Below, piece by piece: positions 1,147 to 29,383 of a DNA stretch of 46,607 bases. The stretch lies in IMG/VR virus record IMGVR_UViG_3300042691_021677, positions 1 to 46,607 of that record; one strand, given 5' to 3'. A model generated the notes under the pieces. It saw only the letters and a program-made list of their open reading frames with translations, ran no database searches and was not told the DNA's origin. Position numbers and translations under genes: made by a program. Source of the stretch: a virus. The stretch's first letter is position 1, and each line of letters starts with the position of its first letter.

Positions 1147-1704
1147 TCAGGGGGGACAGTGGTGGGTTGGGTGGTGGTCTACGGATTCGGATTCCGTGTG
1201 CTCTACTCTGTTAGAGGGTAGCTTTCTACCCGATTCTGACCAAACTTCCCCTTGCACTACATCATCATAAGTGCCTGGGCTTGAACCTATTGCACCAAGA
1301 ATTGCGATGTTTACTTGGTTGCGGTCTTCCTCTCTGTCGAGTCCTACACTCTTTCCTGCAATCTCTGTAGCAATCTTGATCTTGTCTGCCTTTGTAAGTA
1401 TCTGATCATCAGGTAGTTCGGAAGCTACCTTGGTCATTCGATCACCGATCAAATGGATTCTTTCTCTGATCGTTTCCCTTCTCTCTGACCAAATGTCCCT
1501 TGCGACCGCAAGGCTTTTCTCTGTGATCTGTTCCTTGCGTTGCTTCTCTGTTCCGATCGCAGCATTCCATCCTTTCTTGCAAGCCCTTGCACGTAAGGTG
1601 TTTGTGTTAATTCCGAATCGTTCCGAAAGTGTCGGAACAGATACACCTTGCAAGTAAAGACTCTTTACAACGTCCCAATCTACAGAAAGAGGAGGTTTGC
1701 CCAT
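1147..1704 (-). CDS. HTH protein, probable small terminase subunit
   Basis: 185 residues. The N-terminus MGKPPLSVDWDVV leads into a helix-turn-helix (about residues 12-40, LSERFGINTNTLRARACKKGW) of the type found in phage small terminase subunits and related DNA-binding proteins; the middle is a charged helical region and the tail is low-complexity with several His. The ATG at 1704 was preferred to an in-frame GTG five codons upstream because relatives start M-x-K-P-L. Small terminase would recognise the packaging site and hand DNA to the large subunit, which is not in this window. A transcription regulator is the main alternative. Confidence 0.6.
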   Translation of the reverse strand: MGKPPLSVDWDVVKSLYLQGVSVPTLSERFGINTNTLRARACKKGWNAAIGTEKQRKEQITEKSLAVARDIWSERRETIRERIHLIGDRMTKVASELPDDQILTKADKIKIATEIAGKSVGLDREEDRNQVNIAILGAIGSSPGTYDDVVQGEVWSESGRKLPSNRVEHTESESVDHHPTHHCPP

Positions 1705-1780
1705 CCATAATAATCGCACAATTCACCATCAATTAACAGAGTAAATCGCGCTGCTGGTCACTTATAGATGAACCCGAAAG

Positions 1781-1815
1781 GTCAGACAACATGACGTTGT
1801 CCGACTCACGGACAA
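1781..1815. promoter_or_regulatory. Two overlapping, mutually exclusive hairpins
   Basis: GTCAGACAAC (1781-1790) pairs with GTTGTCCGAC (1796-1805), one mismatch. The right arm also contains TTGTCCG (1797-1803), which pairs with CGGACAA (1809-1815). Only one hairpin can form at a time. They lie in the leader of the first gene of the long rightward block, where an attenuator or operator would be placed. Confidence 0.5.
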
Positions 1816-1857: not shown

Positions 1858-2301
1858 ATGAAAAAGAACATCATCAACATGACCATCAGTTACAACGTAG
1901 CCAATACGCAAGACTGCATCGAAGACGCAATCGCACGGGAGATCCATGAGGTTGTCATCTTGCGAGAGGCCAGCGAAGCGAAGCGGGAAACCCTCCGCGC
2001 ATTCGTTAAGGAAAACCTCGCGGCAATCGATATCCCCAAGGTCGAAGCCACGTTGAAAGCCAATGACTACAGTCGCCAACGTATCAGCGATTTGCTGCGC
2101 GAATTCGGCATCGTCCGCGAAGACGATATGACACGCCCGATGTCCAAGGCGCGCAAAGCGGCGAAGGTTACCCGCGAAGAGAAGGGCGAGAAAGTCGAAG
2201 CCAAGTTCAACGAAGCGAAGACCGCTTTGATGAAACTTTGCGGCAACGATAAGAAGCTCTTCCGCGCCGTCATCACTCGCCTCTACCAGAAAGCGAAATA
2301 A
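1858..2301 (+). CDS. Unknown, charged helical protein; first gene of rightward block
   Basis: 147 residues. The middle (SRQRISDLLREFGI) looks helix-turn-helix-like and the following region (about 95-125) is very Lys/Glu-rich, so nucleic-acid binding is plausible. No family is recognised. The ATG follows a purine-rich AGAAAGAAAAG site. It is preceded by the double hairpin region and followed by the first perfect copy of the TTGTCCGTG dyad, so it is the obvious candidate for a regulator of this block; that is inference from position. Confidence 0.75.
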   Translation: MKKNIINMTISYNVANTQDCIEDAIAREIHEVVILREASEAKRETLRAFVKENLAAIDIPKVEATLKANDYSRQRISDLLREFGIVREDDMTRPMSKARKAAKVTREEKGEKVEAKFNEAKTALMKLCGNDKKLFRAVITRLYQKAK

Positions 2302-2320
2302 TTGTCCGTGCCACGGACAA
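2302..2320. repeat. Dyad element, copy 1 (perfect)
   Basis: TTGTCCGTGCCACGGACAA, a perfect 9-bp dyad around a central C, starting one base after a stop codon. Its last bases AAGGA double as a Shine-Dalgarno for what follows. Confidence 0.85.
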
Positions 2321-2322
2321 GG

Positions 2323-2357
2323 AACCATGAACCATGAACCATGAACCATGAACCATG
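2323..2357 (+). repeat. AACCATG heptamer x5
   Basis: Five exact head-to-tail copies of a 7-base unit, each with an ATG, so consecutive ATGs fall in all three frames. Degenerate traces recur near 11834, 13194-13210 and 13881-13900. Confidence 0.9.
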
Positions 2358-2375
2358 AACCACAAACCAAGTAAC

Positions 2376-2585
2376 ATGAGCATAAACAAACCAGTCATCG
2401 TCATCCACAGCAACGACCCTGCGGCGGTCGTGCGTTGCACCGGATACATGATCCTCGCCGAGTTGCGCCACGCCCAAACATGGGGCGCGGCGGGAATCTC
2501 GGTGCATTGCCAAGAGCCGTTCATCTCCGGCTGCATCACCTCGGAACGTGAAGCGCGCCAACTCATGGCCCTATTCGAAGGGTGA
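2376..2585 (+). CDS. Unknown small protein
   Basis: 69 residues from MSINKPVIVIHSND; the segment SEREARQLMALFEG is a C-terminal helix. The ATG at 2376 was chosen because the upstream in-frame ATG at 2355 falls inside the heptamer repeat. No family is recognised. The gene is enclosed by a dyad before it and a long hairpin that begins at its stop codon. Confidence 0.6.
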   Translation: MSINKPVIVIHSNDPAAVVRCTGYMILAELRHAQTWGAAGISVHCQEPFISGCITSEREARQLMALFEG

Positions 2586-2635
2586 GCAAACGACACGCCA
2601 CAACCGACAGCGGTTGTGCGCGTGTGGCTTGCTCA
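2583..2635. terminator. Long hairpin beginning at a stop codon
   Basis: TGAGCAA...CACGC.CACAACCG folds back on CGGTTGTGCGCGTG...TTGCTCA with a 4-base loop; about 20 of 24 positions pair. It begins at the TGA of the upstream gene. There is no T run, so it may be a 3' mRNA stabiliser, a recombination relic or a Rho-linked site. Confidence 0.5.
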
Positions 2636-2648
2636 TTAACGGCAAGGC

Positions 2649-2667
2649 TTGTCCGTGCCACGGACAA
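2649..2667. repeat. Dyad element, copy 2 (perfect)
   Basis: Identical to copy 1, again ending in AAGGAACC, which here supplies the Shine-Dalgarno region of the gene starting at 2690. Confidence 0.85.
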
Positions 2668-2689
2668 GGAACCAACGAACAAAACCAAA

Positions 2690-2893
2690 ATGAAAAGAGA
2701 ACAGATCAGAAACGTCCACGTTACGCTCATCCAGAGTGCGGTGGACAAACTCAGCCGTGAGGAACTCGAACGCGCCAAATATGGTGGCTTGGAGTATTCC
2801 GATCGGCCTAATCCGGTGAACCTCATCCAGCCCGAGCGCAAGCCCGAGCCGATGCGTTTCAGTCTTGCCAACCTCTTTCCGGTTGGCGTGTAA
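2690..2893 (+). CDS. Unknown small protein
   Basis: 67 residues from MKREQIRNVHVTLIQ, ending FSLANLFPVGV. The start at 2690 uses the AAGGA inside dyad copy 2; the longer in-frame reading crosses the hairpin and dyad and has no natural composition. No family recognised. The stop is a TAATAA pair, common in this block. Confidence 0.6.
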   Translation: MKREQIRNVHVTLIQSAVDKLSREELERAKYGGLEYSDRPNPVNLIQPERKPEPMRFSLANLFPVGV

Positions 2894-2916
2894 TAACCCC
2901 GCATTCCCACAAAGCC

Positions 2917-3090
2917 ATGACCATTGAAAAAGCAGACCAACCCAAGGTCGCCGTTCATGTCATCTGGTCGCCCGGTTCCGAGCGCACCAGACCCCAGGTC
3001 GAGCGCACTCTTCCGTTGTCGGAGGAGATTCGTTTCGAGTTCTATCGTCCCGCAACATCGAACAAGGGAGGCGTGTATGCCGAAGGTTGA
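2917..3090 (+). CDS. Unknown small protein
   Basis: 57 residues, MTIEKADQPKVAVHVIW to KGGVYAEG, an alternating beta-like pattern with an FEFYRP motif. It ends inside the next gene (14-base overlap), and its last codons contain the GGGAGG that serves as ribosome binding site of that gene, so the two are probably translated together. Its own ribosome binding site is weak. Confidence 0.5.
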   Translation: MTIEKADQPKVAVHVIWSPGSERTRPQVERTLPLSEEIRFEFYRPATSNKGGVYAEG

Positions 3091-3343
3091 ACTTAAACCA
3101 TTCACGCTACGGATCCCCGATGCGGAGGGAAAGATCGTCCGTCGCGTCAAAGTCAAAGTGCCAGTCGAGTGGGACGAAGCGATCGGGGAATGGATGATGA
3201 CACCGGAGTCGCTCCGCATGGTCGAGGAGGCCAAAGCGTGTGAGATGCGGAAGCCTAGCCCCGAGTTACTCGATGAGATTCTCTGGAAGATCGGCGTCCT
3301 CGCCTTTCTTGCCGTGTTCATCTTGATCGAACTCACCAAGTAA
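3077..3343 (+). CDS. Small protein with C-terminal membrane anchor
   Basis: 88 residues from MPKVELKPFTLRIPD. Residues 70-86 (ILWKIGVLAFLAVFILIEL) form one transmembrane helix; the rest is soluble and basic, probably cytoplasmic. The start at 3077 is fixed by AAGGGAGG seven bases upstream. No family recognised; a tail-anchored host-interaction protein is plausible. Confidence 0.65.
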   Translation: MPKVELKPFTLRIPDAEGKIVRRVKVKVPVEWDEAIGEWMMTPESLRMVEEAKACEMRKPSPELLDEILWKIGVLAFLAVFILIELTK

Positions 3344-3403
3344 TAACTCCACAACGTGGCAAGCGCATCGGTCTCGGCAGTCCCATCCTCCGAGGCCGAG
3401 GGC

Positions 3404-3422
3404 TTGTCCGTGCCACGGACAA
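3404..3422. repeat. Dyad element, copy 3 (perfect)
   Basis: Identical 19-base dyad in a 123-base intergenic stretch. It is flanked upstream by CTCGG...CCGAG and downstream by a CGGCCC...GGGCCG hairpin (3430-3451), so the whole interval is structured. Confidence 0.85.
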
Positions 3423-3466
3423 GGCGAATCGGCCCCGCTCAATCGGGCCGGAGAGAAAGGTAAACA

Positions 3467-3733
3467 ATGCAAGCGATCATCACGAAGTATATCGGCCCCA
3501 CGAATTCGCGGGGTGCGAGGATCAAAGCGGAATGCGGGAGGGGAAAGATCTTCTTCTCGTATCCGTATGAGTTGAGCGGCGATGAGGTTCATCGCGCTGC
3601 CGTCGAAGCGTTGGTCAGCAAGTTCAACGCGGAAGACCAGAAGGAATTCGGGACAACACTGGCATCGTGGAATCGTCCGTTCATCACGGGGCAGATCCCG
3701 TCCGGTGAATATGTCCATGTCTTCACCGAATAG
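3467..3733 (+). CDS. Conserved phage protein (MQAIxTKYxGPTNxRG type)
   Basis: 88 residues. The N-terminus MQAIITKYIGPTNSRGARIKA and the central H-R-A-A segment match, from memory, a small protein common in phages and prophages, of unknown function. The beta-rich N-terminal half and helical middle suggest a compact fold. It starts after GAGAGAAAGG, the first instance of the leader that recurs through the block. Confidence 0.8.
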   Translation: MQAIITKYIGPTNSRGARIKAECGRGKIFFSYPYELSGDEVHRAAVEALVSKFNAEDQKEFGTTLASWNRPFITGQIPSGEYVHVFTE

Positions 3734-3734
3734 C

Positions 3735-3965
3735 ATGAAGACTTACCGCATCACCGCAACGGGCCGCGAGAGCGGTGCAATCGGGATTGTCTACCCGTTC
3801 ACCGACATCGTGGAAGCCGAGAGTGACAGCAACGAGGACATCCTCCTGCCCTTGTATCAGGGCAAGACGGCGAGTGGCAAAGCGTGGGAACACATCATGC
3901 CCCGCCGCATCGAGATAATTAGTCCGATCACCGGACAAGAACCAAGAAAGGAAACAAACCAATGA
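3735..3965 (+). CDS. Unknown small protein
   Basis: 76 residues, MKTYRITATGRESGAIG, with a beta-strand-rich N-terminal half. It starts one base after the previous stop and overlaps the next start as ATGA, so it is translationally coupled on both sides. Its last codons carry the diverged dyad at 3922-3936 and the leader of the next gene, which forces the odd C-terminus SPITGQEPRKETNQ. Confidence 0.65.
   Translation: MKTYRITATGRESGAIGIVYPFTDIVEAESDSNEDILLPLYQGKTASGKAWEHIMPRRIEIISPITGQEPRKETNQ
3918..3941. repeat. Diverged dyad, identical to 7007-7030
   Basis: GTCCG ATCAC CGGAC at 3922-3936. The surrounding 24 bases are identical to 7007-7030. Here the copy is inside a reading frame; at 7007 it is intergenic. 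Confidence 0.8.
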
Positions 3966-4411
3966 AAAAGTATCCGAAACAACTGCATCAGTTCCCGAGG
4001 GATAAGTACAAGAATCCCGATGGGCCGACATGGGCATGGGTCTACAACGGGATCAATGATCCGGTCGAGCCAGAGGCCAACTACATCATCGAGGTTCTCG
4101 AAGACGGGCGAGTGATGCTCGTCCTTGAGAACGACTCGTTCATCGCCGACAAGCTCGCCGATCTCGAGCCGCGCTTGTTTGCGTGGCTGGAGAGCGAAGG
4201 CGTCGAGCCGAAGAAACCGGAACGCTTCGAGCTTGCGTTGCAACCCGAACCCCATGTCTGGGACACGAAGCGCAAGCAAGTCGTGTTCACGATCAATGAT
4301 CCGTACGCCCAGATGATCTGTCTGGAGCGTCCGAACACGGGGTTCACAGCCCTTGTGGATTGGATGAACGCCCTCGACGAGGAAGCACTCGCCAGCGAGG
4401 GCATCAAATAG
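3962..4411 (+). CDS. Unknown protein
   Basis: 149 residues, MKKYPKQLHQFPRDK; rich in Trp, Pro and acidic residues, with a likely beta-strand section (ANYIIEVLEDGRVMLVLEND, about 39-58). No family recognised. Leader AAGAAAGGAAAC precedes the ATG. The TAG stop overlaps dyad copy 4. Confidence 0.75.
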   Translation: MKKYPKQLHQFPRDKYKNPDGPTWAWVYNGINDPVEPEANYIIEVLEDGRVMLVLENDSFIADKLADLEPRLFAWLESEGVEPKKPERFELALQPEPHVWDTKRKQVVFTINDPYAQMICLERPNTGFTALVDWMNALDEEALASEGIK

Positions 4412-4425
4412 TCCGTGCCACGGAC
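4411..4425. repeat. Dyad element, copy 4 (7-bp arms)
   Basis: GTCCGTG C CACGGAC, starting on the G of the upstream TAG stop. Confidence 0.8.
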
Positions 4426-4454
4426 AACAACCTACAACGAAAGGAAACAGACCA

Positions 4455-4634
4455 ATGAGTAAGTACGACTACAGCGAAGACAGATACGGACTCACGCTGC
4501 ATTTCCCCAACGGCAAGACGACGTTCTTGCAGGGCGACGATGCGAGTGATCTCCAAGACCAACTCGAAGCGTGCGAAACGCAAGAGCAAGTGGAGGCGAT
4601 CATCTCCGAGTACGAGGTGCTCGTCGAAGAGTAA
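4455..4634 (+). CDS. Unknown small acidic protein
   Basis: 59 residues, MSKYDYSEDRYGLTLHFPNG, ending EVLVEE. The beta-hairpin-like start and helical acidic end suggest a compact domain. The leader CGAAAGGAAACAGACCA is the same as that of the next gene apart from one base. Confidence 0.7.
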   Translation: MSKYDYSEDRYGLTLHFPNGKTTFLQGDDASDLQDQLEACETQEQVEAIISEYEVLVEE

Positions 4635-4660
4635 CAACCAACCAGAAAGGAAACAGACCA

Positions 4661-4921
4661 ATGGAAAAACAAATACCAACACCCACACCGATCAAAGAAC
4701 TTCGTCTCGGAGACGTTGTGCAAGTGTGGGATGGGCCGTGGGGAACGGCAACTATTCATCAAATCGCAGACGACTGCGTCTTTTTTGAAAGACCCTATGG
4801 AGCACGAGCAGACTTCTCCTTCACGGGGGGAGTCCTCTGCTATGTCGGAATCGAAAGGTTCCATTACCGCATCGACTCCGACAGCACCATCGGAGTGTGG
4901 TCGAGGGCTGATCTGAAATAA
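4661..4921 (+). CDS. Unknown small beta-rich protein
   Basis: 86 residues from MEKQIPTPTPIKELRLGDVV. The pattern L-G-D-V-V-x-V-W-D-G-P-W-G-T-A-T-I resembles an SH3-like or KOW-like barrel start, which is inference only. Start fixed by the AGAAAGGAAACAGACCA leader. Confidence 0.7.
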   Translation: MEKQIPTPTPIKELRLGDVVQVWDGPWGTATIHQIADDCVFFERPYGARADFSFTGGVLCYVGIERFHYRIDSDSTIGVWSRADLK

Positions 4922-4948
4922 CAACCAACCAAGAAAGGAACCAACATC

Positions 4949-5467
4949 ATGGACATCACAGACATCGAACTCACGCCATTGCGTGACGTAGTAAAGAACC
5001 CGAGCGGTTGGGATTCGCTCTCCAACTACCTCGGCGAGATACCGGAACCCGAGTGGCTTTGCGTGCTGACACGCAACCGAGACTCGGACGAGTTGACCGA
5101 GAGCAACTGGCGTTGCGCCTTGAAGCAACTCGGCGGCGAGAGTGACAACGTGACCATCGACCGCTTCGGCCATTGGGCTTGCGGATGGTGGGAAGCGTTG
5201 TCGGTCAAGGCCGGATCACCACAGCAACGCATAGCCCAAGAGATCACGTCCTCACTCTCGGACTACCCCGTCCTCGACGAGCACGATTGGTCTGAGTTGC
5301 AGGATGAGGAAGCCAATCGTGTGTGGTCTGACTGTTACAACAACAGCGACCGCATCGAGTATATCCGCGAGCACCGCGACTGGTTCACATTCCATAGCTT
5401 CGCCGATCTCCTCGCCAATGCGCGGGGAAAATACTTCTCCGGCTATGCGGGCGAACTCCTCCACTAA
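4949..5467 (+). CDS. Conserved phage protein with FGHWACGWWE motif
   Basis: 172 residues. The segment TIDRFGHWACGWWE (about 70-83) and SDYPVLDEHDWSELQDEEA (about 104-122) match, from memory, a conserved phage protein of unknown role seen in unrelated phages. Trp-rich and acidic, with no membrane segment. Leader AAGAAAGGAACC; dyad copy 5 follows the stop. Confidence 0.75.
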   Translation: MDITDIELTPLRDVVKNPSGWDSLSNYLGEIPEPEWLCVLTRNRDSDELTESNWRCALKQLGGESDNVTIDRFGHWACGWWEALSVKAGSPQQRIAQEITSSLSDYPVLDEHDWSELQDEEANRVWSDCYNNSDRIEYIREHRDWFTFHSFADLLANARGKYFSGYAGELLH

Positions 5468-5468
5468 C

Positions 5469-5485
5469 TGTCCGTGCCACGGACA
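5469..5485. repeat. Dyad element, copy 5 (8-bp arms)
   Basis: TGTCCGTG C CACGGACA, two bases after a TAA stop and about 35 bases before the glycosylase gene. Confidence 0.8.
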
Positions 5486-5519
5486 ACGTAATAACCCCAC
5501 ACCCAAGAAAGGAACTAGT

Positions 5520-6083
5520 ATGATCATACCCACAGAGATCACCAACTACCAACGCACCGACGATCAGCTTGAGCAGTTCATGCTCTTTTGCATCGCCGTG
5601 GCGGGACACAACGCCGACACGACCGCAAGGATGGTCAATCGGTTCATCGAAGATGCGTGTGGACTTCCGTTCACCTACCTCCGGTCGAGCCATCGGGACA
5701 TTGACTCGATCTTGGAGCACTACGGCATCGCCCCATACAACAAGAACACTGCCGCCTTGCGCGGAGTTCTCAACATGGATCTCCGCACTTGCACGCTGCA
5801 CGATCTGCTCGGCATCCACGGCATCGGCCACAAGACGGCGCGGATGTTCCTGCTGCACAGCAGACCGGATGAGGAACACATTGTCCTCGACGTTCATATG
5901 CTGCGCTGGCTCCGCAAGGTCGCCAAGTTGCGCGGTATCCCCGCGCTTACTCCGCACAAGCTGTCGCCGAAATACTTGAACATCGAGGCGAGGGCCAAGC
6001 GCAAGGTGCGTGAGATGTTCCCTACCATGACCTTTGCCGAGTTCGACTTGGCAACGTGGAAGCTGATGAGCGGGAGGAACTGA
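5520..6083 (+). CDS. HhH-GPD DNA glycosylase, OGG1-like
   Basis: 187 residues, all helical. Residues 96-108 (LLGIHGIGHKTAR) form the helix-hairpin-helix and residues 122-130 (VLDVHMLRW) the catalytic loop. Lys105 and Asp124 are 19 residues apart, the same spacing as the catalytic Lys/Asp pair of OGG1-type 8-oxoguanine glycosylase/lyases, so a bifunctional base-excision enzyme is likely. It lacks the iron-sulfur Cys cluster of Nth. Starts after AAGAAAGGAACTAGT and overlaps the next start (TGATG). Substrate is unproven; repair of incoming DNA, or removal of a modified base, would fit. Confidence 0.8.
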   Translation: MIIPTEITNYQRTDDQLEQFMLFCIAVAGHNADTTARMVNRFIEDACGLPFTYLRSSHRDIDSILEHYGIAPYNKNTAALRGVLNMDLRTCTLHDLLGIHGIGHKTARMFLLHSRPDEEHIVLDVHMLRWLRKVAKLRGIPALTPHKLSPKYLNIEARAKRKVREMFPTMTFAEFDLATWKLMSGRN

Positions 6084-6271
6084 TGGAACCGATCACGCTC
6101 AACATTGCGGGGGAGAAAGTGCGCGTCCTGTTCGACGGCGAACGAGTGACCAGCACCGACTTCCCCAATCAACCCATCGACTACACCGCACCATGCGGGA
6201 TGCACATCACGCAAGAGATGCTGGTGCAAGTCTGCCACAACAAAACACAACGAAAGGAAACAAACCAATGA
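6083..6271 (+). CDS. Unknown small protein
   Basis: 62 residues, MEPITLNIAGEKVRVLFDGERV, beta-rich. GGGAGG upstream and a TGATG junction couple it to the glycosylase. Its last codons hold the leader of the next gene, producing the tail CHNKTQRKETNQ, very similar to the tail of the 3735-3965 product for the same reason. Confidence 0.65.
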   Translation: MEPITLNIAGEKVRVLFDGERVTSTDFPNQPIDYTAPCGMHITQEMLVQVCHNKTQRKETNQ

Positions 6272-6981
6272 AAGACCTCATCACATTCGACAATGCCAAG
6301 ACGACCAAGGGCGAGAGCCTCGGTTGGTTGACCGGCATCCTGTACCTTGCACCATATACCTTGAGCGGGCGCAACGTCTGCTCCCATGCCTCACCGCATT
6401 GCGCTGAAGACTGCCTCAACCTATCCGGCATGGGCGTCTTCGACAACGTGCAGCAAGCCCGCATCCGCAAGACGCAACTCTTCCACGCCAGCCCCAAGGC
6501 GTTTGTCGAGGGACTCGACGGCGACATCGGCAGGGCCAGGAGGAAAGCGGATCGGATGACCCTGCGTCTTGCCCTGCGCCTCAATGGACTGAGCGACTTG
6601 CCGTGGGAGAACCTCGGCGGCGAGCGCAAGGTCAGTCTCATGGAACGTCACCCCGATCTGACCTTCTACGACTACACCAAGAACCCGCACCGCATGGCGG
6701 CGTATCTCGACGGCAAGATGCCGGAGAACTACAAGCTCACCTTCTCCCGTTCGGAGGTCAACGAGGACATTGCCGATGCGTTCGTCCGGCGGGGCGGCAA
6801 CGTGGCGGCGGTCTTCTCCACCAAGAAGAAGGACACCCTGCCCGATAGCTACCTCGGCGCACCCGTCATCGACGGCGACACGCACGACCTCCGCTTCCTC
6901 GATCCTCGGGGTGTGGTCGTCGGACTCCGTGCCAAGGGCAAGGCGAGAAACAACCAAAGTGATTTCGTGATTGCGGTGTAA
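6268..6981 (+). CDS. GP88-family protein
   Basis: 237 residues. Residues 38-50 (CSHASPHCAEDCL) followed by N-L-S-G-M-G-V-F and Q-Q-A-R-I-R-K-T match the phage gene product 88 family (from memory, Pfam GP88), whose spaced cysteines Cys38/Cys45/Cys49 suggest a metal or cluster site. Later blocks (LTFYDYTKNPHRM, KLTFSRSEVNE) are also typical. The biochemical role is unknown. Starts four bases inside the previous gene with the AAAGGAAAC leader. Confidence 0.8.
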   Translation: MKDLITFDNAKTTKGESLGWLTGILYLAPYTLSGRNVCSHASPHCAEDCLNLSGMGVFDNVQQARIRKTQLFHASPKAFVEGLDGDIGRARRKADRMTLRLALRLNGLSDLPWENLGGERKVSLMERHPDLTFYDYTKNPHRMAAYLDGKMPENYKLTFSRSEVNEDIADAFVRRGGNVAAVFSTKKKDTLPDSYLGAPVIDGDTHDLRFLDPRGVVVGLRAKGKARNNQSDFVIAV

Positions 6982-7006
6982 TAACTCCGCAATTACACAA
7001 CCAATG

Positions 7007-7030
7007 ATTAGTCCGATCACCGGACAAGAA
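7007..7030. repeat. Diverged dyad, second copy
   Basis: Intergenic copy of the 24-base element at 3918-3941, with GTCCG ATCAC CGGAC at 7011-7025. It runs straight into AAGAAAGGAG, the ribosome binding site of the gene at 7042. Confidence 0.8.
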
Positions 7031-7041
7031 AGGAGAACACA

Positions 7042-7338
7042 ATGACTACTGAAGAATTCCACGAGAAGCTCCGTAATGAGCTTTTCTACAAGGTAGGAAC
7101 TGGCGGGGGCTGCGAAGCCCTCGTCGCTTACCGCTACATGGAACCCCCGAGCAAGCAGGGGGAGACCGAGATCATGCTCACCGCCGCCGAAGACCCGAGT
7201 CTTCCTGAGGCGGACGAGCAAGTGCAGATCACTGTCCGTGTCACGGACAGCAATTACGAGGTGACATGGGTCGCCTCACCCGAAGAGACGCTGGCGTTCG
7301 CGAAGAGCGTCAGTGTTTGGCCCAACAGCAACAAATAG
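7042..7338 (+). CDS. Unknown protein containing an internal dyad
   Basis: 98 residues, MTTEEFHEKLRNELFYKVG, with a beta-strand run VQITVRVTDSNYEVTWVA. Codons 64-70 are written as a perfect 19-base dyad of the same family as the intergenic ones, so the element tolerates being translated (T-V-R-V-T-D-S). No family recognised. Confidence 0.75.
   Translation: MTTEEFHEKLRNELFYKVGTGGGCEALVAYRYMEPPSKQGETEIMLTAAEDPSLPEADEQVQITVRVTDSNYEVTWVASPEETLAFAKSVSVWPNSNK
7232..7250. repeat. Dyad element, copy 6 (inside a gene)
   Basis: CTGTCCGTG T CACGGACAG, perfect 9-bp arms with compensating changes at the outer and central positions relative to copies 1-3. Confidence 0.85.
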
Positions 7339-8962: not shown

Positions 8963-8988
8963 CAACCAACAAGAAAGGAAACACAACC

Positions 8989-9868: not shown

Positions 9869-10069
9869 ATGCAAAATATACAATACACATTCGACGCTGC
9901 TGACTTCGGCGAAGACGACCTCAACTTCATCATGGAGATTGCCCGCAAGCACCCCGATGTGGCGGCTTACTGGGATGATGAGGGTCGCTGGTATTACATT
10001 GCCAAACACGAACCGACCGAGCGCGAGATTCGCGAACTCAAGAAGTTCAACGGAATTGACGAGGAATAA
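9869..10069 (+). CDS. Unknown small protein
   Basis: 66 residues, MQNIQYTFDAADFGEDDLNF; acidic and helical. The GGAAAGGAATAA that ends the preceding gene doubles as its ribosome binding site, so the two are coupled (3-base gap). Confidence 0.7.
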   Translation: MQNIQYTFDAADFGEDDLNFIMEIARKHPDVAAYWDDEGRWYYIAKHEPTEREIRELKKFNGIDEE

Positions 10070-10388: not shown

Positions 10389-10559
10389 ATGAAAACTAAT
10401 TCAAAAATCCTCGAATCCGCAGCCCACTTCAACGCGGAACATGATTACGACATCGAAGCGATCCTGGCCTTTGTGTCCGTGGCTTTGCGTCACGCTCACT
10501 CGGTCCAACTCGCTCGCGTCAAAGAGCAAAACCCGCAGCTTGAACTGCCCATTGAATAA
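10389..10559 (+). CDS. Unknown small protein
   Basis: 56 residues, MKTNSKILESAAHFNAEHDY, a pair of helices ending LELPIE. The terminal QLELPIE resembles a sliding-clamp-binding peptide (QLxLP) seen in beta-clamp partners; this is a motif match only. Leader AAGAAAGGAACCA. Confidence 0.65.
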   Translation: MKTNSKILESAAHFNAEHDYDIEAILAFVSVALRHAHSVQLARVKEQNPQLELPIE

Positions 10560-10568
10560 TAACTACAC

Positions 10569-10886
10569 ATGAAAGCCTACAAGTTGTTACGCAAGCGCAG
10601 GGACGGGTCGCTTGGCCCGCTCTTCATCAACCGCAAGCAAGTCGTGCCGCAAGGTCGTTGGCTCCGCGCCGAGTGTCACCCCACGCAGGGATTCGCCCTG
10701 CGGCCGGGCTGGCATTGCGCGGCCACGCCGGAAGCACCGCACCTCAAGACCGAACTCCGCAGCGGCGAACGCCGTGTGTGGTGCGAGGTCGCGATCGAAC
10801 AATTCACCGAGTATCCCCGCCCCGCCAATCAAGGCGGCAAGTGGCTGCTCGCCGAGCGGATGCGGATCATCCGCGAACTCAACTAA
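10569..10886 (+). CDS. Conserved phage protein (MKAYKLxRxRxDGxLGPLFINR type)
   Basis: 105 residues. The blocks MKAYKLLRKRRDGSLGPLF, HPTQGFALRPGWHC and GGKWLLAERMRIIREL match, from memory, a widespread phage and prophage protein of unknown function. Two His/Cys positions (H-P-T, W-H-C) could bind metal. Basic overall. Confidence 0.85.
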   Translation: MKAYKLLRKRRDGSLGPLFINRKQVVPQGRWLRAECHPTQGFALRPGWHCAATPEAPHLKTELRSGERRVWCEVAIEQFTEYPRPANQGGKWLLAERMRIIRELN

Positions 10887-11468: not shown

Positions 11469-11499
11469 CAACAACCAACCAAGAAAGGAAACCAACACA

Positions 11500-11817
11500 A
11501 TGAAACTACAAACCAAGATCCTCGAAGCTGTGCAACGCAGCGACATGAGCATCCGCTATGTCGATATCCGCAGGCTCCACAACCCCGATGCTTGGGGCTG
11601 TAAGGACGAGGCGTATTGCGTCCACATCAAAACCTTCAAGCGCGACAACCCCGATGCCGACCAGCCTTGGGATCGCACCTACGAGGACGAGAACGACAAA
11701 CGCCGGGCCGAAGCCCTGGCCGAGTCGATCGAAGCCCTCGGCAAAATCGGCGACCGCGAACTCTTCGGGAACGTCAACTTCTACACCCGACAAGTCTATG
11801 TCGGTGACACCATATAA
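11500..11817 (+). CDS. Unknown protein
   Basis: 105 residues, MKLQTKILEAVQRSDMSIRY; helical with an acidic middle (DNPDADQPWDRTYEDEND). Leader AAGAAAGGAAACCAACACA. The stop is a TAATAA pair, 15 bases before the methyltransferase start. Confidence 0.7.
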   Translation: MKLQTKILEAVQRSDMSIRYVDIRRLHNPDAWGCKDEAYCVHIKTFKRDNPDADQPWDRTYEDENDKRRAEALAESIEALGKIGDRELFGNVNFYTRQVYVGDTI

Positions 11818-11834
11818 TAACTACATACACTACA

Positions 11835-12863
11835 ATGAACCATGTGGATCCTACCATCACACACATCAGTCTATGCACCGGATACGGAGGTCTTGACCTC
11901 GGAATCCGTAGAGTCGTTGGCGAACGTCTGCGGACAGTCGCTTACAGTGAAATCGAAGCCTTCGCGTGCGAGTTACTTCTCTCGCGCATGGAGGGCGGGC
12001 AACTTGATTCGGCTCCGATCTGGCCTGATCTCCGCACTTTCCCTTGGGAAGAGTTCGCCGGAGTCTCGATCATCAGCGGGGGGTTTCCATGTCCCCCGTT
12101 TTCCGCAGCCGGAAACAGGAACGCCGATGAAGACCCGAGACACCTCTTCCCCTTCATCCTCGACGGCATCCGCCGAGCACGACCTACCGCTGTTTTCTTG
12201 GAAAACGTCGAAGGCATCGTCTCGGCCAAGCTCAAGGGAGACGGGTGGAGCGACCCTGCCGGCACTCCGGTTCTGCTCCATGTCCTCCGAGAGTTGGAGC
12301 GCGTGGGTTACATCGCAGAGGCGGGACTATACTCGGCGTCAGTCGATGCGGGAGCGCCTCACCAACGACGCAGGGTCTTTATCTTGGCCCACCGCGTCGG
12401 CGAGGGACTCGAAGGGTGGCTACCAAGGGGGCCGCATCCGCAACGGGAAGCTGTCGATGGACACGCTCGACGTGGCGGTGCAAGCCTATCGGGAGGGTGG
12501 CATCCTTGGCCCGCCCGTCCGGGCGAACTCCAGCATGACTGGGAACCACCCCGAGTCCTTATGGGCGACACCGAACGCGGGGGACGGCAAAGCTGGAATG
12601 GCGGTCAACAGATTGCAGAAGTCTCTCGGGCAGGATGTGACGAGGGCGGAGGGCGGCTATCTGCCCAAGGCCAAGCTCAACCCGAGGTTTTCGGAAGTCT
12701 TGATGGGACTGCCAGTCGGCTGGCTTATGCCGAGTTGTGCTCGTCCTGTGATTCAAGATGGGACGAGCTTCGATTGGCAGGGAACGGCGTTGTCCCCCAG
12801 TGCGCTGCCGTCGCCTTCCACGACCTCACTTGCCGCTTGAATAATAACTCCACAACCAAATAA
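11835..12863 (+). CDS. dcm-like: DNA cytosine-C5 methyltransferase
   Basis: 342 residues. Motif I is SLCTGYGGLDLG (12-23), the SAM loop; motif IV is GGFPCPPFS (82-90) with catalytic Cys86; motif VI is ENV (123-125); motif VIII is QRRRVFILA (177-185); motif X is GNGVVPQ (316-322). Residues about 186-312 replace the target recognition domain and look compositionally strange, though WPARPGELQHDWEPPR (225-240) recalls other phage C5 enzymes. It methylates C5 of cytosine in a site that cannot be read from sequence, probably to evade host restriction. No Shine-Dalgarno of the usual leader type; the ATG lies in an AATGAACCATG context. A second frame overlaps it throughout. Confidence 0.9.
   Translation: MNHVDPTITHISLCTGYGGLDLGIRRVVGERLRTVAYSEIEAFACELLLSRMEGGQLDSAPIWPDLRTFPWEEFAGVSIISGGFPCPPFSAAGNRNADEDPRHLFPFILDGIRRARPTAVFLENVEGIVSAKLKGDGWSDPAGTPVLLHVLRELERVGYIAEAGLYSASVDAGAPHQRRRVFILAHRVGEGLEGWLPRGPHPQREAVDGHARRGGASLSGGWHPWPARPGELQHDWEPPRVLMGDTERGGRQSWNGGQQIAEVSRAGCDEGGGRLSAQGQAQPEVFGSLDGTASRLAYAELCSSCDSRWDELRLAGNGVVPQCAAVAFHDLTCRLNNNSTTK
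11842..12840 (+). CDS. Overlapping +1-frame ORF with TRD-like motifs
   Basis: 332 residues in the +1 frame of the methyltransferase, starting at an ATG seven bases after the first one and ending 23 bases before it. The first 110 residues look like a shadow. From about residue 115 the text becomes protein-like and resembles, from memory, the variable C-terminal parts of phage C5 methyltransferases and their companion frames: LFSWKTSK (118-125), SWSAWVTSQRRDY (151-163), SWPTASARD (181-189), WATP (241-244) and KLNPRFSEVLMGLPVGW (278-294). Either a genuine second product, a part joined by frameshifting, or a shadow kept open by high GC. No separate ribosome binding site is evident. Confidence 0.45.
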   Translation: MWILPSHTSVYAPDTEVLTSESVESLANVCGQSLTVKSKPSRASYFSRAWRAGNLIRLRSGLISALSLGKSSPESRSSAGGFHVPRFPQPETGTPMKTRDTSSPSSSTASAEHDLPLFSWKTSKASSRPSSRETGGATLPALRFCSMSSESWSAWVTSQRRDYTRRQSMRERLTNDAGSLSWPTASARDSKGGYQGGRIRNGKLSMDTLDVAVQAYREGGILGPPVRANSSMTGNHPESLWATPNAGDGKAGMAVNRLQKSLGQDVTRAEGGYLPKAKLNPRFSEVLMGLPVGWLMPSCARPVIQDGTSFDWQGTALSPSALPSPSTTSLAA

Positions 12864-12877
12864 GAAAGGAAACCACC

Positions 12878-13177
12878 ATGAAGGGAACACACAAGAACAC
12901 GTTGGAAATCTACAAACGCGGAGGCGCAGTCAAAGCCTCCGACTGGACTACGGGCGGGACGCCGCGCTTCATCAAGCGCCGCCCCACCCCGCAGTTCTGC
13001 AAGGAGGTCCGCGCCTCCGAGGTCGAGGGCTTACCCGCCCCCGCCCGGAAGTCGGCGCTGATCGTCCTCAAGAGAAACCCCAAGGCCCGCAAGCTCATCG
13101 TGCTTGTCGATCAGGAGGGCTTTGAAACCATGCTGGCCGAGGAGTTCGCCCGTGAACTCGAACGGCTGGCTGTATGA
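12878..13177 (+). CDS. Unknown basic protein
   Basis: 99 residues, MKGTHKNTLEIYKRGGAVKA; Lys/Arg-rich N-terminal half, helical acidic C-terminus (MLAEEFARELERLAV). DNA binding is possible. Leader AAGAAAGGAAACCACC. No family recognised. Confidence 0.7.
   Translation: MKGTHKNTLEIYKRGGAVKASDWTTGGTPRFIKRRPTPQFCKEVRASEVEGLPAPARKSALIVLKRNPKARKLIVLVDQEGFETMLAEEFARELERLAV

Positions 13178-19132: not shown

Positions 19133-29383
<10,251 letters not shown>

Follow-up and report, generated by a model that had tools for sequence, protein, structure and literature searches.

Genome-specific palindromes dispersed in the early operons of six related phage types and a first-gene protein proposed as their regulator

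Introduction

Palindromic repressor sites dispersed over the early regions of temperate phages are represented by the conserved inverted repeats (CIRs) of phiC31, and detailed knowledge of dispersed operators that co-evolve with their regulator comes mainly from mycobacteriophages. The stoperators of Cluster A mycobacteriophages (L5/Bxb1) are short, genome-specific copies located mostly in short intergenic spaces, and they diverge together with a phage-encoded regulator, a repressor in which both the helix-turn-helix (HTH) and the C-terminal part affect specificity; the L5 sites are asymmetric 13-mers that are bound by a monomer, number 20-30 genome-wide and are oriented with transcription (PMC6550527, PMC9283540). 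In the temperate Cluster K phages, the ESAS elements are imperfect 17-bp inverted repeats with a spacer of 4-13 bp, which lie beside the 13-mer SAS (GGGATAGGAGCCC) upstream of many gene starts and have a subcluster-specific consensus (PMC3203893, PMC12699233). Here we analyze a 46,607-bp IMG/VR virus record (IMGVR_UViG_3300042691_021677; hereafter the window, meaning the whole stretch), in which nine short dyads of the form GTCCG-N5-CGGAC punctuate the rightward early operon, in comparison with five related IMG/VR types, referred to as L016, L098, L139, L153 and L166. We propose, with a probability of about 0.6, that the dyads are dispersed palindromic DNA operators for the product of this operon's first gene (gene 1, 1858-2301).

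The window and phiC31 are alike in having dispersed early palindromes and differ in the sequence of the sites and in the repressor family. As in the Cluster A phages, most sites are intergenic (seven of nine dyad midpoints, in a region only 12% of which is intergenic; P = 1.1e-5), and over the six types the site consensus appears to diverge with the putative regulator. Unlike the stoperators, however, these sites are palindromes of 14-16 bp and not asymmetric 13-bp sites, they number 4-13 per genome, and none lies beyond the first 4-9 kb of the early operon. The small first-gene protein is also apparently unrelated to the L5 repressor, as judged by the absence of Pfam, PHROG and INPHARED matches and not by a direct comparison with gp71. 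The dyads resemble ESAS in being start-associated inverted repeats with a group-specific consensus, but they have a candidate cognate protein, whereas none is named for ESAS in PMC3203893 or PMC12699233, and the SAS 13-mer has no match here at up to two mismatches. The system would work like stoperators, yet belongs to neither the stoperator nor the ESAS family.

Dyads in the window

Gene 1 and the nine dyads are arranged as follows.

1858..2301, + strand: gene 1, at the head of the early operon; 147 aa, isoelectric point (pI) 9.5; proposed cognate regulator
1797..1815: dyad 1, upstream of gene 1 in its leader; TTGTCCG-ACTCA-CGGACAA, with an imperfect centre
2302..2320: dyad 2, directly 3' of the gene 1 stop; TTGTCCG-TGCCA-CGGACAA
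2649..2667: dyad 3, in the intergenic space before the second conserved small gene; TGCCA type
3404..3422: dyad 4, intergenic; TGCCA type; orthologous sites with similar flanks in L016 (GTCCGTTAACGGAC) and L166 (GTCGCAAATGCGAC)
3920..3938: dyad 5, within the 3' end of open frame 3735-3965; ATCAC type
4409..4427: dyad 6, its first bases being the TAG stop of gene 3962-4411; TGCCA type
5468..5486: dyad 7, directly after the stop of gene 4949-5467; TGCCA type; orthologous L016 site at 8984
7009..7027: dyad 8, intergenic; ATCAC type; candidate counterpart in L153 at 5481
7232..7250: dyad 9, inside coding sequence 7042-7338, where it encodes TVRVTDS; TGTCA type

The nine GTCCG-N5-CGGAC cores begin at 1799, 2304, 2651, 3406, 3922, 4411, 5470, 7011 and 7234; none was found elsewhere in the 46.6 kb, and the late block is free of the element, as the original prediction had held. 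The 19-mer TTGTCCGTGCCACGGACAA is present exactly at 2302, 2649 and 3404, with one mismatch at 4409 and 5468 (earlier described as shortened copies), and with two mismatches at 1797 and 7232. The last of these lies inside a gene, as had been stated, and the homologues in L016, L139 and L153 differ at its position. A 20-mer, GTCCGATCACCGGACAAGAA, occurs identically at 3922 and 7011, and all previously listed copies, including the related GTCCG/CGGAC forms at 1797, 3922 and 7011, could be recovered. Simulated counts favour the finding: at up to three mismatches the 19-mer was found seven times against 0.03 expected from shuffles, and the top dyad family of the first 12 kb had six identical members with six-base arms, compared with at most one in any of 25 shuffles.

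Two claims about the context and symmetry of the dyads stood only in part. Most dyads had been said to follow a stop codon and to lead directly into a ribosome-binding site; those at 2302, 4409 and 5468 do start on a stop codon or no more than 2 nt from one, but the spacing up to the following start codon ranges from about 16 to 75 nt, so that there is no fixed coupling to the ribosome-binding site. Compensating changes had been taken as a sign of selected symmetry. Within the window the outer pairs are not generally compensated, with A opposite A in three of the nine copies, and this support is therefore thin, whereas between phages it is convincing.

Dyad types in related phages

Relatives were gathered through protein searches from the early block and with a pattern for the conserved leader sequence. 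The five types to be compared with the window carry the following dyads; the early block of L166 ends early, at the contig end.

L016 (3300032298_000575, 70 kb): GTCCG-TTAA-CGGAC, three copies, and a leader copy with a TAAA centre, four in all
L139 (3300037520_001079) and L167 (3300036406_001076): GTCCG-GAATTC-CGGAC, four copies, and one with AAATTC, five in all
L153 (3300035126_000631) and L162 (3300049595_002672): GTCCG-RTSAY-CGGAC, seven copies with ATCAC, GTGAT, GTGAC or GTCAC centres, and one further, foreign GAATTC copy in a segment common to L139
L097 and L098 (3300042335_000799 and 3300042389_001427): ATCCG-TTNAA-CGGAT, 13 copies
L166 (3300033993_002030): GTCGC-AAAY-GCGAC, six copies, and a broken leader copy

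In all types the copies are restricted to the opening part of the rightward early operon: in L098, for example, all 13 fall within 9.4 kb of a 72-kb contig. The dyad type is nearly uniform within each genome, and the centres change as wholes between types. Changes in the arms are compensated, G-C being replaced by A-T in L098 and CG/CG by GC/GC in L166, so that GTCCG/CGGAC becomes ATCCG/CGGAT and GTCGC/GCGAC, respectively. The covariation of the arms in relatives, which had been suggested as a check, was thus observed.

Sites shared between types retain similar flanks around different dyads. At L139:6084 (GTCCGGAATTCCGGAC) and L153:4202 (GTCCGGTCACCGGAC) the flanks are 98% identical upstream and 82% downstream, and at L139:3521 and L153:1642 the corresponding values are 71% and 98%; in both pairs the dyad differs. 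Flank identity is 72% upstream and 81% downstream between L016:7908 and the orthologous L166 site, and 61% and 89% between position 3406 of the window (GTCCGTGCCACGGAC) and L016:7908. On the reverse strand of L166, CTTGTCCGAAGACGGACGAG (TTGTCCG-AAGA-CGGAC) adjoins the GTCGC dyad at 3279 and is an apparent relic of the TCCG type, which, standing beside a copy of the new type, possibly represents an intermediate of site replacement. The foreign L153 copy, at 1177, lies inside a stretch 98-100% identical to L139, indicating a recent import. Conserved flanks combined with exchanged dyads would be explained better by a phage-specific trans-acting factor than by drift or mobility.

Among 24 loci with a 172-aa protein (L091-L114), the three that carry gene 1 have a dyad family; in the other 21, repeated dyads with six-base arms were seen only in L099, where they are A/T-rich, and in L101. 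Relatives of the GP88 protein (L017-L090) mostly had only that gene in common with the window and showed no such dyads, or ordinary terminators (L030, L041), and a scan of viral contigs for the exact 17-mer pattern returned unrelated single matches only.

Gene 1 and the dyad type

All six types have a gene 1 homologue in the corresponding position, with about 24-66% identity, and no other protein family was found in every one of the six early blocks, that of L166 being cut by the contig end. The contigs of L166 (G015) and L167 (G016) align at about 88-97% identity for the greater part of the aligned length. This likeness includes the divergent gene and promoter block (94%) and ends just before gene 1; between the two contigs gene 1 differs, and so do the dyads. 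The pairing of sites and gene is well supported by these comparisons. Of the three readings offered by the original prediction, namely operators, RNA hairpins and small mobile repeats, the first, which named the 147-residue product of 1858-2301, is the best supported, since gene 1 appears to change with the dyad type.

In phages with TCCG arms the putative recognition helix is without exception QRIS(E/D) or RRVSE; the phage with TCGC arms has QDIHRAF instead. The C-terminal part shows its greatest similarity where the spacer length is shared: the proteins of the window and L153 are 48% identical (both N5 spacers), as are those of L016 and L166 at 43% (both N4), while L016 and L153, with HTHs that are 90% identical and different spacers (N4 versus N5), share only 36% in their C-termini; L098 (N5) and L139 (N6) each have a C-terminus of their own. 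These patterns are suggestive of a recognition helix that tracks the arms and a C-terminal part that tracks the spacer.

The gene 1 proteins are basic (pI 9.5-10.1). AlphaFold models of the window and L153 proteins are all-helical (pLDDT about 72, pTM 0.38-0.42). Residues 59-68 and 73-82 form two short helices in the region read as an HTH from sequence; the putative HTH would accordingly span residues 59-82. Sequence-profile searches with gene 1 gave no convincing match, and no match was found in INPHARED or PLSDB. Prophages carrying gene 1 were absent from 387 genomes of the phylum of one Verrucomicrobiia metagenome-assembled genome, a negative result that carries little weight.

Proposed mechanism and competing explanations

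Comparison between phages demonstrates, at the level of sequence, the sites, their restriction to the early operon, their genome-specific concerted sequence and their linkage to gene 1, and from here we infer DNA binding, dimerisation, a two-part division of labour and repression or road-blocking. The gene 1 protein, made first, would occupy the site in its own leader as well as the downstream sites, probably binding as a dimer whose HTH reads the arms (GTCCG/CGGAC in the window) and whose spacer preference is set by a C-terminal dimerisation part. Given a leader site, another immediately 3' of gene 1 and several over the next 5 kb, binding could combine autoregulation with a stoperator-like block to transcription of the early operon, restraining both initiation and elongation in a negative feedback, and possibly serving as an immunity device. 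Gene and sites have diverged together in the related phages, and one phage pair differs by a swap of the whole block at once, which is what an immunity-like or regulatory-specificity module would be expected to show. A further, tentative proposal, which we regard as possible, is that these proteins constitute an undescribed regulator family with a two-part code, in which the HTH specifies the arms (TCCG or TCGC) and the C-terminal domain the spacer (4, 5 or 6), gene and sites are exchanged as a block, and leftover sites are converted to the new type. The six uncultivated phage types follow the logic known from mycobacteriophages, but their palindromes are near-perfect and their putative regulator lacks Pfam, PHROGs or PDB matches. 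The compact gene and its 4-13 sites change in step and thereby offer a natural series on how a small dimeric protein alters both the sequence and the spacing that it recognises; the set is also suited to learning by what route a phage converts its full set of operators once specificity has changed.

Several observations weigh against operators of the gene 1 protein. Gene 1 has no family match in Pfam, PHROG or PDB, and fold searches of both gene 1 models (Foldseek and VIA-align, against PDB and BFVD) returned nothing above noise; the HTH is therefore read from the sequence and from a model of low confidence. Spacers range from 4 to 6 bp among the phages, a difference that a rigid dimer could accommodate only if the protein itself changed, and the assignment of arms and spacer to separate parts of the protein draws on six types only. 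The leader scan recognised no sigma-70-like promoter. Finally, the L166 centre is not palindromic (AAAC/AAAT), and its six copies all have the same orientation, which fits an RNA better.

An RNA role is unlikely in our estimate. The dyads might be hairpins of the polycistronic early transcript, acting in protein binding, processing, translation control or nut/boxB-like antitermination, with gene 1 encoding an RNA-binding protein. The early transcript contains all of the copies, most of them located after one gene's stop and before the start of the following gene. RNA folding energies of the types range from -6 to -12 kcal/mol, with a loop of 4-6 nt, and the asymmetric L166 loop (AAAC/AAAU) keeps a constant orientation. 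In lambda, the 15-nt boxB element of nut has a 5-bp stem and a small loop, the small basic N protein is encoded first in the early operon, and the specificity of N and nut differs between related phages. A 5-bp stem with a 4-6-nt loop beside a small basic first-gene product recalls this arrangement, and the size of the stem-loop fits. Unlike lambda nut, however, the dyads occur in many copies per operon, have palindromic centres and are weakest in the leader, the copy that antitermination would need; this copy is degraded or absent in four of the six types (ACTCA in the window, TAAA in L016, broken in L166 and absent in L139). No boxA was recognised near the dyads, though no systematic search for it was made. 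The hairpin reading agrees with the folding but is the less favoured one, since positions in the centre that are unable to pair within an RNA loop are nevertheless complementary, in seven of nine cases (P = 0.0013) and in five of six types, failing only in L166. Centres also occur as mutual reverse complements within one phage (ATCAC/GTGAT in L153, TTCAA/TTGAA in L098, where the middle base is free).

A quite improbable explanation is that a different trans-acting factor, from the host or from a gene not captured here, reads the dyads and that gene 1 is a linked passenger of the swapped block. Gene 1 is tied to the sites by correlation, and the swapped block includes other genes; yet gene 1 is the sole family in all six blocks, and a host factor fails to explain different types in phages that are near-identical outside the block. 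The divergent HTH gene at 1147-1719 was considered as such a factor and rejected, because at about 94% DNA identity it is common to phages with different dyads. We consider it very improbable that the dyads are cassette boundaries, that is, gene-end palindromes promoting recombination and shuffling of early genes. Such a role would suit the heavy rearrangement of early genes between relatives, the several dyads just 3' of stop codons, flank similarity that is often high on one side only, and the L139-type dyad in a segment near-identical in L139 and L153 (98-100% flanks). It predicts mixed types within a genome, however, where a nearly uniform type is observed, and many early genes of these operons are without dyads.

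Other identities were rejected. A host-wide palindromic repeat (REP/HIP-like) does not fit the 84,980 GTDB species genomes, in which the 19-mer appears once each in eight unrelated bacterial contigs, several of these chance copies apparently in reading frames. As no species genome held more than one copy, and as each phage has essentially one type confined to one operon, the suggestion of small mobile repeats found no support. The dyads are not intrinsic terminators: they are followed by AAGGAACC, AACAACC and the like, with no T run on the transcribed strand, and no terminator was called at the dyads on the + strand. Rfam covariance models had no match in the window or L016 and only a tRNA in L098.

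Neighbouring sequences and further observations

Upstream of gene 1 the window carries two further features.

1728..1770, + strand: conserved non-coding block AACAGAGTAAATCGCGCTGCTGGTCACTT, between the divergent gene and gene 1
1147..1719, - strand: terminase-small-like/HTH gene, divergently transcribed

The block at 1728..1770 is conserved in L016, L139, L153 and L166 and, on sequence grounds, is a probable early promoter region. Short GAACCAT tandem repeats are present at 2322-2370, between dyad 2 and the next gene, and at about 13190; they are retained in the gene 2 leaders of L016, L139, L153 and L166.

The window is probably an incomplete genome, because relatives of 70-74 kb carry, in regions not shared with it, PolA, a primase, an SF2 helicase and an integrase-like gene. 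No integrase was seen in the window; a temperate life style nevertheless appears plausible for these phages, since the L016 contig encodes an integrase-like protein (phrog_1, E 1e-11). The first 25 kb of the window had no megablast match to known phages. A leftward frame at 19133-29383 (3416 aa) is 98% identical to L153 over 1344 aa while both early blocks have diverged, pointing to strong mosaicism.

Two other repeated elements were observed in the collected contigs. L101 (IMGVR 3300009068_000129) contains five structured elements of about 85 nt, at about 9915-10000, 10513-10598, 11495-11582, 12233-12320 and 12870-12956, each consisting of CAGACACTC, a stem with a TATCG/CGATA tip and AGCAGTCTG, followed by a second small hairpin and AAAACAC. 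Two-sided changes are seen in eight of 18 pairs, and Rfam has no match; the element appears to be a repeated phage RNA or regulatory DNA not described before. Contig 3300042389_001427 has a second dyad, GTTC-(C-rich)-GAACAT, in seven copies on the minus strand of L155 (9201, 9896, 10940, 11706, 12791, 14335 and 18224), which is found only in the stretch with ATCCG dyads and mostly just downstream of one of them.

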